A stretch of DNA of 53,472 nt from contig JAIEOO010000214.1 of NCBI GenBank assembly GCA_019750475.1, positions 1 through 53,472 of the forward strand. The letters are read 5' to 3'. Every line of letters starts with the position of its first letter. The first letter of the stretch is position 1. This document shows, piece by piece, positions 22,667 through 31,974 of this stretch. The position numbers and the translations under genes were made by a program. The notes beneath the pieces were generated by a model. The model saw only the letters and a list, made by a program, of their open reading frames with translations, did not search any database and was not told the origin of the DNA. The DNA comes from Acetobacteraceae bacterium. Lineage in GTDB: Bacteria > Pseudomonadota > Alphaproteobacteria > Acetobacterales > Acetobacteraceae.

Positions 22667-23884
22667 ATGTCGGCAGCGCTTGATCACGGCAGCACCCGCC
22701 AGGAGGGCCGCGCGCGCCGCGTCGGCGTCGCCATCGTCGGCCTCGGGGGCGCGGTCGCCACCACGGCCATCGCCGGCGTGGAGATGCTGCGCGCCGGCGC
22801 CAACGACGTGGGCGGCCTGCCGCTGCGCGACGCGCGGGCGCCGGGCCTCGTGGACTACACCGGCCTGGTGTTCGGCGGCTGGGACCTGAACGGGGCCGAT
22901 CTCGCGGCCGCGGCGGCGGCGCACAACGTCCTCGACCTCGAGCAGTACCGCCAGGTGGAGGGCGCGATGGCGGCGCAGCGCCCCTGGCCCGCCGTCGCGT
23001 CGGCCGAGTATTGCCGCGGCGTGCAGGGGCGGCATGTCCGCCCCGTCCCCGGCCACCGCGCCGCCATCGCCGCCATCGAGGACGATCTGCGTCGCTTCCG
23101 CGCCGACAGCGCCGCCGACGGCGTCGTGATGATCAACCTCGCGAGCACGGAGCGCTGGCCGCAGCCGAGCGCCGCGCATGAGAGCATGGAAGCGTTCGAG
23201 CGCGCCCTCGATGCCGACGACGCGGCGATCAGCCCGGCCATGCTCTACGCCTACGCGGCGATCCGCGCCGGCGTGCCCTATGGCAACTTCACGCCGTCCC
23301 AGGCGGCTGACATCCCGGCGCTGATGCACATGGCGGCGGCGCGCGGCGTGCCGGTCGCCGGCAAGGACGGCAAGACGGGCCAGACCTTCATGAAGACGGT
23401 GCTGGCCCCGGCGCTGCGGGCGCGGGCGCTGCACGTGGATGGCTGGTTCAGCACCAACATCCTCGGCAACCGCGACGGCGAGGCGCTGCGGGACCCGAAC
23501 TCGCTCCAGTCGAAGCTGAACACCAAGGGCGAGGTGCTCGACAGCATCCTGGGCTACCGCGTCGAGGACCACCTCGTGGACATCCGCTACTACCGCCCGC
23601 GCGGCGACGACAAGGAAGCCTGGGACAACATCGACGTCACGGGCTTCCTCGGCCAGCGCATGCAGATCAAGGTCAACTTCCTCTGCAAGGACAGCATCCT
23701 CGCCGCGCCGCTCGTGCTCGAGATCGCGCGCCTGCTCGACCTCGCGCGGCAGCGCGGCGAGGCCGGCCCGCAGGAGCAGATGTCGTGCTTCTTCAAGGCG
23801 CCGATGACGGCGGGCCGGCCGCCCGAGCACGCCTTTCCCGAGCAGCTTCGCCTCCTCTCCGACTGGCTGGCGGCGGGGCGCTGA
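22667..23884 (+). CDS. ino1: Inositol-3-phosphate synthase
   Basis: A 405-residue enzyme converting glucose-6-phosphate to inositol phosphate with bound NAD, of the short bacterial/archaeal type. The NAD motif is VGLGGAVATTAIAGV (about 23-37). GKDGKTGQTFMKTVLAP, FSTNILGNRDGEAL and KDSILAAPLVLEIARLLDL are the conserved active-site segments; the Lys residues in the first and last of these are the expected catalytic ones. It is the first gene of a nine-gene co-directional run, after a strong upstream terminator, so it probably opens the operon and supplies its cyclitol. The stop is four bases from the next ATG. Confidence 0.93.
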   Translation: MSAALDHGSTRQEGRARRVGVAIVGLGGAVATTAIAGVEMLRAGANDVGGLPLRDARAPGLVDYTGLVFGGWDLNGADLAAAAAAHNVLDLEQYRQVEGAMAAQRPWPAVASAEYCRGVQGRHVRPVPGHRAAIAAIEDDLRRFRADSAADGVVMINLASTERWPQPSAAHESMEAFERALDADDAAISPAMLYAYAAIRAGVPYGNFTPSQAADIPALMHMAAARGVPVAGKDGKTGQTFMKTVLAPALRARALHVDGWFSTNILGNRDGEALRDPNSLQSKLNTKGEVLDSILGYRVEDHLVDIRYYRPRGDDKEAWDNIDVTGFLGQRMQIKVNFLCKDSILAAPLVLEIARLLDLARQRGEAGPQEQMSCFFKAPMTAGRPPEHAFPEQLRLLSDWLAAGR

Positions 23885-23888
23885 GGCG

Positions 23889-24794
23889 ATGGACGGGGGG
23901 CATGGGGGCGCGCTGCGGACGATGGTCCCGGCGCTGCGGGAGCTGAACGACCTCAAGCGCATCACGAGCGCGGGGCGCGAGGGGAGCATCGCCGCGCGGC
24001 TGTTCCGCGCCGCCTGGTGCCGCCTCGCGGCCGGGGCGCTGCCGATGGAGGTGTGCGAGGCGACCGTCGCCGACGCGCTCGCCGCCTCGCGCCTCGGCGA
24101 TCTCGACGCGGAGGCGATGGGCGCGGTCGGCCTGCTGCCCTCGGAGATCCGCGCGGTGCGCGGCACCGCCCTCGGCGAGATGGCCGGCATGCTGCCGGGC
24201 GCGGAGCGCTTCGCGCCGGGCCTCGACGCGGCGCCGGTGCTGTCCTGCGCGCCACCGGCCTTCGTCGCCGCCCTCGCCGCCCAGCCGCGGGCCGGCGTCA
24301 CCTGCCCGGGCAAGCCGCGCCTCCTGCTGCTGCCGCCCGAGAGCCACGCCGAGCACTGCCTGATGGTGGCCGTCTATGGCGCGCTGCTGGCGCGGCCCTA
24401 CCGCGCCGATCCCGGCACGGTCTTCCTCGCGAGCCTCGCGCATCACCTCCACAACGCCCTGCTGCCGGACAGCGGCTTCACCGGGGAGACGCTGCTGGGC
24501 GAGCACCTCGCCCCGGCCTTCGAGGCCGCGACCGAGCTCGCGCTCGCGCAGCTGTCGCCGGCGCTGCGGGGCCGCGTGGTCGCCGCGCGCGGCACCCTGC
24601 CCGACGCCGCGACGCCGGAGGGCCGCGCCTTCCACGCCGCCGACACGCTCGACCGCGTGCTGCAGACGCAATGGCATCTCCAGGCGGCCGGCATCACGAT
24701 GGACCGCGTGCTCGGCGAGATGGAGCTGGTGCATGACGGGCCGGTGAAGCCCTTCCAGGATCGCGTCCTGGCGGAGGCCGGGCTGTGGCCGTGA
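23889..24794 (+). CDS. HD-like protein, possible phosphohydrolase
   Basis: A 301-residue protein I do not recognise by name. The N-terminal half (1-140) is helical and unassigned. The C-terminal half looks like an HD-fold hydrolase: SHAEHCLMVAVYGALLA (first His, 153/156), then LAHHLHNALLPDSGF (185-197), where the HD pair would lie, and FHAADTLDRVLQTQWH with a late Asp (252/255). The usual His-Asp doublet reads His-His here, so metal binding may be altered; D194 could compensate. In this context a phosphatase acting on an inositol or glycosyl-inositol phosphate would be useful, but that is inference. It overlaps the next gene by ten bases. Confidence 0.6.
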   Translation: MDGGHGGALRTMVPALRELNDLKRITSAGREGSIAARLFRAAWCRLAAGALPMEVCEATVADALAASRLGDLDAEAMGAVGLLPSEIRAVRGTALGEMAGMLPGAERFAPGLDAAPVLSCAPPAFVAALAAQPRAGVTCPGKPRLLLLPPESHAEHCLMVAVYGALLARPYRADPGTVFLASLAHHLHNALLPDSGFTGETLLGEHLAPAFEAATELALAQLSPALRGRVVAARGTLPDAATPEGRAFHAADTLDRVLQTQWHLQAAGITMDRVLGEMELVHDGPVKPFQDRVLAEAGLWP

Positions 24795-31220: not shown

Positions 31221-31254
31221 AACCGCCGCACCGGGCCGCGCGCTGACAGGGCCC

Positions 31255-31974
31255 ATGCCGGTCGCCCTCGCCCTGTCGCCGCATCTGGACGACGCCGCCT
31301 TCTCGGCCGGGGCCACCCTCGCCGCGCTGGCGAACAAGGGGTGGGACGTGACCGTCGCGACGCTGTTCACCGCCAGCGTCCCCAACCCCACCGGCTTCGC
31401 CCTCGCCTGCCAGCTCGACAAGGGCATCCCACCCGGGACCGACTACATGGCGATCCGCCGCGCCGAGGACGCCGAGGCCTGCGCCATCCTCGGCGCGCGA
31501 CCGGCCTTCCTGCCGCTGCGGGAGGCGCCGCACCGTGGCTATTGCGGCGCCGCCGCGCTGTTCGGGCCGGTCCGCCCCGACGACGCCGCGCATGTGCAGG
31601 CGGCCCCTCTGCTGCGGGACCTCATCGCGCGGCTGACGCCGACCCTGATCCTCGCGCCGCAGGCGATCGGCGGGCATGTGGACCATGTCCAGCTGCTGCG
31701 GGCGCTGAGCCTCGTCGCCCCGACGGCACCCGTCTGGTTCTGGGAGGACCAGCCCTACGCGTCCCGCCCCGGAACCCACCCGGCGCGTCCCTTCGAGGAC
31801 GGGATGGCGCGGCTCGATCGGCGGGAGACGACCGGAGATGCGGCGACGAAGCTGGCGGCGTGCCTGTGCTACGCCTCGCAGCTTCGCTTCCAGTTCGGCG
31901 GGGCCGACGGCGTCGCGTCCCTGGGCGGGGCGGAAGTCTTCCGCACCCGCCCCGCGCTCGCCCAAGCCGCCTGA
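31255..31974 (+). CDS. PIG-L family deacetylase
   Basis: A 239-residue zinc deacetylase of the PIG-L/MshB family, which removes acetyl groups from N-acetylglucosaminyl lipids or inositides. The zinc motif is SPHLDDAAFSAG (8-19, ligands H10 and D13, base D12), with the third ligand H144 in GGHVDHVQL. RRAEDAEACAILGA is the conserved helix. The spacing matches MshB (AHPDD, later HPDH). The start at 31255 gives a protein that begins directly with the first strand. It is the last gene of the nine-gene run. In mycothiol synthesis the same activity gives GlcN-inositol; no MshC-like ligase is seen in the window. Confidence 0.88.
   Translation: MPVALALSPHLDDAAFSAGATLAALANKGWDVTVATLFTASVPNPTGFALACQLDKGIPPGTDYMAIRRAEDAEACAILGARPAFLPLREAPHRGYCGAAALFGPVRPDDAAHVQAAPLLRDLIARLTPTLILAPQAIGGHVDHVQLLRALSLVAPTAPVWFWEDQPYASRPGTHPARPFEDGMARLDRRETTGDAATKLAACLCYASQLRFQFGGADGVASLGGAEVFRTRPALAQAA

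Follow-up and report, generated by a model that had tools for sequence, protein, structure and literature searches.

The window analysed here is a 53,472-nucleotide stretch of DNA from a bacterium of the Acetobacteraceae (contig JAIEOO010000214.1 of assembly GCA_019750475.1), and it carries between positions 22667 and 31974 an operon of nine tightly coupled enzyme genes, all on the plus strand. Pfam assigns a family to each of the nine proteins. The operon opens with ino1, encoding the myo-inositol-phosphate synthase Ino1 (22667-23884; PF07994/PF01658), followed by a 301-amino acid HD-fold protein (23889-24794; HD_3), an S-adenosylmethionine methyltransferase (MT; 24785-25885; Methyltransf_11) and a Gfo/Idh/MocA oxidoreductase with an EKP motif (25885-26862; here Pfam was run on a longer open reading frame (ORF) from 25840). 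Next come a zinc-ribbon metallo-beta-lactamase-fold protein (MBL; 26862-27704; Lactamase_B), a stand-alone YcaO, an ATP-dependent enzyme (27701-29167; PF02624), and a xylose-isomerase-like TIM barrel (29164-29997; AP_endonuc_2, PF01261). A GT4 glycosyltransferase with a GTG start (29994-31220) and a PIG-L de-N-acetylase (31255-31974; PF02585) complete the set. The successive junctions are +4, -10, -1, -1, -4, -4, -4 and +34 bases, the HD and MT genes sharing a 10-base overlap. An earlier note on this DNA had described nine plus-strand genes with tight junctions, and all of its coordinates, families and gaps are verified. Three of the Pfam assignments are borderline, with scores barely over the cut-off (HD 22.8 versus 22.5 bits, MT 23.5 versus 21.2 and MBL 24.1 versus 22.7). 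Ino1 is the only match to PF01658 in the genome, and YcaO the only member of its family there.

How well is this arrangement preserved in other bacteria? An alignment of the TIM barrel was scanned against 84,980 species genomes, giving 407 candidate stretches and 298 relatives, of which the best 80 were studied; a query of genome contigs with YcaO as a single protein gave 0 relatives. Selection went through the TIM barrel and took the nearest loci, so that the counts, which describe these 80 loci, show the TIM barrel travelling with the other genes and do not give the frequency of those genes on their own. Duplicates are kept in the counts (L006 and L038 lie on one contig, as do L007 and L042, while L013 and L016 are near-identical). 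All nine genes are found in the order of the window at 27 of the best 80 loci, and in the same order without MBL at a further 46; contig ends cut the operon at 6/80. Every operon gene that was detected lies on a single strand, in 80/80 of these loci. A lone rearranged copy among them occurs in Plastoroseomonas arctica (L024, 2052-12728), where MBL-YcaO is shifted upstream of ino1.

The hosts of the operon are Acetobacteraceae, Methylobacterium/Methylorubrum, Sphingomonas and Hymenobacter. The nine genes are present in order in a genome of the same genus (L006), in another genus of the Acetobacteraceae (L008), on a plasmid of Roseomonas haemaphysalidis (L011) and in a class-level relative (L015), in which the HD gene (5426-6315) is split over two frames. 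Eight genes, all but MBL, are found in Methylobacterium aquaticum 22A, M. bullatum and genome G318. A plasmid of Hymenobacter volaticus (L014), a member of another phylum, the Bacteroidota, has eight as well, all but MT; in that copy the Gfo (9907-10934) and GT4 (14155-15386) genes each lie in two frames, for which sequencing error and decay are both possible. Since the gene order is found again in further genera and in a second phylum, a chance grouping is excluded. The earlier note had proposed a single co-conserved biosynthetic unit with inositol as its entry point, and had named scattering of the genes in relatives as the observation that would count against it. That comparison has now been run, and at the 27 and 46 loci the operon stays together. 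Synteny supports the proposal, and the operon is confirmed as one biosynthetic unit.

The distribution of the operon's YcaO type is uneven. It is found in 4/60 relatives, 3/385 genomes of a class sample and 6/398 of a phylum sample, with the window's genome counted in each, and the five other carriers in the phylum sample all belong to the Methylobacterium genus group. Within the genus of G318, YcaO is present in 97 of 99 sampled genomes; we take this genus to be Methylobacterium because a number of the MBL locations in it coincide exactly with those in genomes that bear the name Methylobacterium or Methylorubrum. YcaO is missing from G440, where part of the TIM gene is present (residues 79-274) and a contig break is possible, and from G490, from which YcaO, MBL and the TIM barrel are jointly absent. 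An MBL homologue of 41-45% identity is encoded elsewhere in 97/99 of these genomes, and is absent from G490 and from the 70%-complete G502. In the set of 60 relatives, an MBL match of >=57% identity is found in exactly the three YcaO carriers besides the window's genome; one further genome has a match of 28%. MBL thus follows the occurrence of YcaO, and is therefore tied to the pathway even where it is unlinked. In 3/4 regions examined the Methylobacterium MBL gene lies near a conserved ORF of ~1060 amino acids, which by its length could be a resistance-nodulation-division pump.

The distances between the proteins are correlated as well. Distance matrices for eight shared proteins from 81 loci are pairwise correlated with r of 0.76-0.95; the mean is 0.93 for the Acetobacteraceae and 0.82 for the Methylobacterium group, where the lowest value is 0.64, and these correlations reflect the shared ancestry of the hosts as well. 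In a midpoint-rooted tree of Ino1, YcaO and the TIM barrel from 84 loci, 24 Acetobacteraceae loci form one clade. Two other Acetobacteraceae loci, L008 and L082, adjoin Methylobacterium and Sphingomonas, and Hymenobacter lies beside G383 with a support of 0.93. These placements, together with the plasmid copies, point to spread of the operon by horizontal transfer. Strain names containing 'Leaf' account for 9/80 of the best 80 loci, and the Hymenobacter carrier is an air isolate. Methylobacterium is described in a passage of one paper as abundant on leaves (PMC9674006).

The individual enzymes were compared with solved structures and aligned with their counterparts, after removal of sequences shorter than 0.8 or longer than 1.25 times the median (1/85 for HD, 2/86 for Gfo and 1/88 for GT4). 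The solved structures nearest to Ino1 are 7nwr and 1u1i, with 1gr0 far off; we take these to be the Bacteroides, Archaeoglobus and M. tuberculosis proteins, respectively. The model of the HD protein is confident, with a predicted local distance difference test (pLDDT) score of 91.6; its Foldseek matches to HDDC2 are weak (best E 0.037, none <0.001), and H156, H185, H186 and D252 are invariant in 37 sequences. Because its sequence matches to HD proteins fall in both halves (E 0.07-0.1), a duplicated HD fold is possible. Chemistry of the myo-inositol-oxygenase type was set aside for this protein, given the histidine in place of the HD aspartate and nearest folds that resemble, at weak E-values, HDDC2. 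In the MT, E128, A130, C131, G132, I133 and G134 are conserved in >=97% of 84 sequences, as is E92-K93-P94 in >=97% of 84 Gfo proteins, whose nearest solved structures are 1,5-anhydro-D-fructose reductases. MBL, whose model is also confident (pLDDT 91.1), is placed by Foldseek in the MBL fold, including ODP; it carries a zinc ribbon in addition, and its metal motif is reduced, HxH being kept and DH lost. C8, C11, C23, C26, H115, H117, H171 and D190 are invariant in 19 sequences.

YcaO has the full domain and belongs to the superfamily (169.4 bits versus a Pfam cut-off of 25.7). E69, E72, E177, Q180, R181, D182, E255, K267 and E271 are conserved in >=97% of 89 sequences, and of these E69, E72, E177, Q180, E255 and E271 are presumably ATP-site residues. 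The nearest solved relative is 6pe3/MJ1094, TruD, LynD and MusD are further relatives, and the carboxy-terminal part aligns with MJ1094 and TruD/LynD. In the TIM barrel E157, D183, H186 and E250 are invariant in nine sequences, as are the nearby H219 and H221. It is distant from UlaE, IolI and IolE, its nearest solved structures being sugar epimerases; aligned by eye, E157, D183 and E250 correspond to what we take to be metal ligands of UlaE. An earlier label of 'IolG/IolE-type' for the Gfo and TIM proteins can stand as a possibility only, since the nearest structures of both lie in other enzymes. GT4 has three solved relatives at E <= 1e-15; two of them are 3c48/3c4v, presumably MshA, to which the resemblance is only distant. 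The PIG-L protein retains P9-H10-L11-D12-D13 and H141-V142-D143-H144 in >=97% of 87 sequences, and its closest solved structures are glycopeptide pseudoaglycone deacetylases.

A candidate promoter element is found ahead of ino1 in the Methylobacterium group. The sequence GGAAC-N16-18-GTT occurs at 35 of 48 loci of this group, against 0.54 expected in shuffles, and these are the only occurrences among 82 loci overall; it lies 88-114 bases ahead of the chosen ino1 start. A relaxed form is found at 47/48 loci (1.62 in shuffles). The loci are related and hence not independent. The same motif search found none upstream of YcaO. The EcfG motif is given as GGAAC-N17-20-GTT for Sphingomonas melonis in a passage of PMC6599016, and as GAAC-N16,17-C/GGTT for M. 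extorquens in a passage of PMC4814048; the sites before ino1 mostly end in AGTT, and fit the former. The Methylobacterium ino1 gene is thus predicted to carry a promoter motif like those of the general stress response. In the Acetobacteraceae (L017-L037) a CGTGAT-type element is present upstream of ino1, its longer form at 13/26 loci against 0.19 in shuffles, and a different regulator is possible there.

What might the operon make? We judge it an even call that it is a dedicated, horizontally spread pathway to a small, soluble metabolite that is derived from inositol, is glycosylated and probably amino-functionalised, and most likely protects against stress or light. From the HD step on, the reactions suggested below draw on knowledge of the enzyme families, as do the order of the steps, the substrate of YcaO, the product and its role, which is probably protective. 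Ino1 would make inositol phosphate from glucose 6-phosphate, and for this step the family argues strongly. The HD protein might then strip the phosphate, a weaker suggestion. The Gfo dehydrogenase would turn one ring hydroxyl into a ketone, which the TIM barrel would isomerise or dehydrate to an enolic dione, and the MT would cap an enol oxygen. An N-acetyl sugar would be added by GT4 and its amine freed by PIG-L. Finally, YcaO would spend ATP in activating the ring carbonyl, or a vinylogous acid, so that an amine can attack it, giving a conjugated, ultraviolet-absorbing amino-cyclohexenone or imine. MBL may perform some hydrolytic step in the pathway.

A more specific version of this pathway can be offered tentatively. 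In the mycosporines the activation of a carbonyl for amine attack is done by an ATP-grasp enzyme, and the primary papers on another ultraviolet-absorbing product, methylobamine, are reportedly those of Yoshida (2017) and Kamo (2018). It is conceivable, if somewhat doubtful, that the operon is the route to ultraviolet A (UVA) sunscreens of the methylobamine type, in which YcaO would replace the ATP-grasp enzyme and act on a cyclitol carbonyl rather than a peptide amide. The link is attractive because the operon is near-universal in Methylobacterium and has a stress-type promoter motif there. Methylobacteria are stated in a passage of PMC9664959 to make ultraviolet-absorbing compounds including methylobamine, and a passage of PMC12573535, which does not name methylobamine, attributes UVA-absorbing compounds to Methylobacterium. 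We found no assignment of genes to methylobamine in the passages of open-access literature searched.

Two known systems resemble the proposed chemistry in part. The mycosporine pathway consists of a cyclase like dehydroquinate (DHQ) synthase, an O-methyltransferase and an ATP-grasp ligase. It shares with the operon only its proposed logic, namely a cyclitol core, a methyltransferase and an ATP-driven addition of an amine to an activated enone; the methyltransferase is the only one of its families that Pfam detects among the nine genes, which have no DHQ-synthase-like cyclase and no ATP-grasp protein, and have Ino1 and YcaO instead. The ebo cluster includes the UbiA-type EboC, the TatD-type EboB and the DHQ-synthase-like EboD. 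By Pfam there is no prenyltransferase, TatD hydrolase or DHQ-synthase-like protein among the nine genes. The operon is accordingly assigned to neither system. The mycosporine set of cyclase, O-methyltransferase and ATP-grasp ligase is also given for a yeast in the abstract of PMC10057719. In a passage of PMC6282210 the ebo cluster, from cyanobacteria and others, is described as widely conserved; it includes a TIM barrel and is suspected of acting on cyclitols, and in all of this the operon is similar to it.

Several observations weigh against a pathway to a soluble protectant. In Methylobacterium MBL lies outside the operon, and in Hymenobacter MT is missing from it. Ahead of its operon the window has no EcfG-like motif, and the motif was found at 0/26 Acetobacteraceae and 0/6 Sphingomonas loci; the sites in Methylobacterium are mostly one base off the M. 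extorquens consensus. Among the enzymes, the HD motif has His-His, the aspartate of His-Asp being replaced by histidine, and the TIM barrel has alanine opposite the third UlaE metal ligand in the alignment, a residue that we take to be histidine. By curated family score, neither the Gfo nor the TIM protein is an inositol enzyme. The host of the Roseomonas plasmid was isolated from a tick. Lastly, a gene with an LPG_synthase_TM domain, the membrane region of lysylphosphatidylglycerol synthase, follows the operon at 43/46 Methylobacterium-group loci (one member scanned), and could hint at a role in the envelope.

That neighbour bears on an alternative that we regard as unlikely, in which GT4 and PIG-L make a decorated glucosaminyl-inositol that serves not as a chromophore but as a lipid head group, a unit of a surface glycan or a compatible solute. 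Ino1, GT4 and PIG-L are the classical glucosaminyl-inositol set, as in mycothiol, GT4 has matches to GT4 families of exopolysaccharide synthesis as well (under their cut-offs), and in one plasmid a glucosyltransferase gene annotated as mdoH follows the operon. Yet the LPG_synthase_TM neighbour is not common to the other clades, Pfam detects no lipid transferase, flippase or polymerase among the nine genes, and YcaO, the TIM barrel, MT and Gfo would not be needed. The same three families could instead point to a thiol or redox cofactor like mycothiol or bacillithiol, built on a glucosaminyl-cyclitol with YcaO as the ligation enzyme. The distant matches to MshA, BshA and BshB1 and the stress-type motif ahead of the Methylobacterium ino1 gene are consistent with this, but the scores are far under the curated cut-offs for mycothiol (MshA 78.7 versus 462.5 bits, MshB 16.1 versus 224.35 and the mycothiol Ino1 43.3 versus 638) and for bacillithiol (BshA 69.9 versus 273.7, BshB 25.2 versus 182.5). 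The single match to the MshC ligase in the window's genome, at 278.3 bits, is under its cut-off of 485.1, and neither a cysteine ligase nor a sulfur-transfer protein is found by Pfam among the nine genes, six of which are extra to the mycothiol set. Thus the analogy with mycothiol drawn in the earlier note is weak, Ino1 and PIG-L being nearer to other structures, and we think such a thiol improbable.

Still less probable, in our judgement, is modification of a peptide by YcaO, giving a ribosomally synthesised and post-translationally modified peptide (RiPP) with azolines or thioamides, for which the sugar and cyclitol enzymes would be tailoring functions. The operon's YcaO resembles those of azoline RiPP, YcaO-TfuA and McrA thioamidation systems in its full domain, with 6pe3/MJ1094 nearest, and aligns with the D proteins TruD and LynD; its best subfamily model is SagD, at 107.1 bits against a cut-off of 219.25. 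Unlike in those systems, none of the nine genes encodes an E1-like partner, and the constant companions of this YcaO are enzymes of sugars and cyclitols. The window's genome has no match to TfuA (PF07812), and no separate conserved small ORF that might encode a precursor peptide was found in the 14 of 47 Methylobacterium Gfo-YcaO gaps searched. Seven of these 14 have no ATG-start ORF of >=20 amino acids and in two such an ORF is confined to the minus strand; in the other five a plus-strand ORF runs into the YcaO start and looks like an N-terminal extension, alongside unrelated frames. A YcaO gene cluster of Roseomonas mucosa is described in a passage of PMC8776678 as a putative azoline RiPP. 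As for a catabolic operon for inositol, the dehydrogenase has IolG as its top NCBIfam match (116 bits), and iol operons are known to include TIM barrels of this fold. However, that score is far under the cut-off of 355, the TIM barrel of the window matches no iol family, and the operon starts with a synthase and holds GT4, PIG-L, YcaO and MT, so that we consider catabolism hardly tenable.

The earlier note knew of no characterised pathway with this gene set, and none was found in the open-access literature searched. In Methylobacterium we have a near-universal pathway for which that literature describes no product, and whose gene set would put YcaO chemistry onto a sugar-derived ring. The operon offers a genetic handle on the tolerance of sunlight or other stress in leaf-dwelling bacteria. 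If the proposed route to a sunscreen is true, it would be carried, partly on plasmids, by other bacteria that include leaf isolates, to judge by strain names, and a Bacteroidota member isolated from air.

In the window the operon is preceded by a phasin gene (21977-22399), which ends in a terminator-like hairpin with a T run on the plus strand (~22430-22462) that separates the operon from it. The earlier note had called this a strong terminator. The hairpin is present and folds at -29.6 kcal/mol (z = -2.6), but a mechanical scan of 20000-34000 finds only one such site against 2.7 expected in shuffles, so that the hairpin alone is no strong evidence. Downstream lies a minus-strand gene for a PnrA/Bmp-like substrate-binding protein (32080-33507).

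Within 6 kb flanks of 73 loci, no family from outside the operon is found at two or more loci in each of the three main clades. In the Methylobacterium group a histidine kinase gene and a divergent gene with an SLT domain are also conserved neighbours at 43/46 loci (one of each scanned); L096 (13807-16180 downstream and 2470-3729 upstream of the operon) is an example of the neighbours in this group. On the Roseomonas plasmid (L011, 16236-19907) the mdoH-annotated gene past the operon is followed by two genes of the spore photoproduct lyase family on the opposite strand. A gene overlaps the PIG-L stop or follows it closely at 10/73 loci (eight of the Methylobacterium group and two Acetobacteraceae, e.g. 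L058:12946-13599); the one member scanned belongs to the uracil-DNA-glycosylase superfamily.

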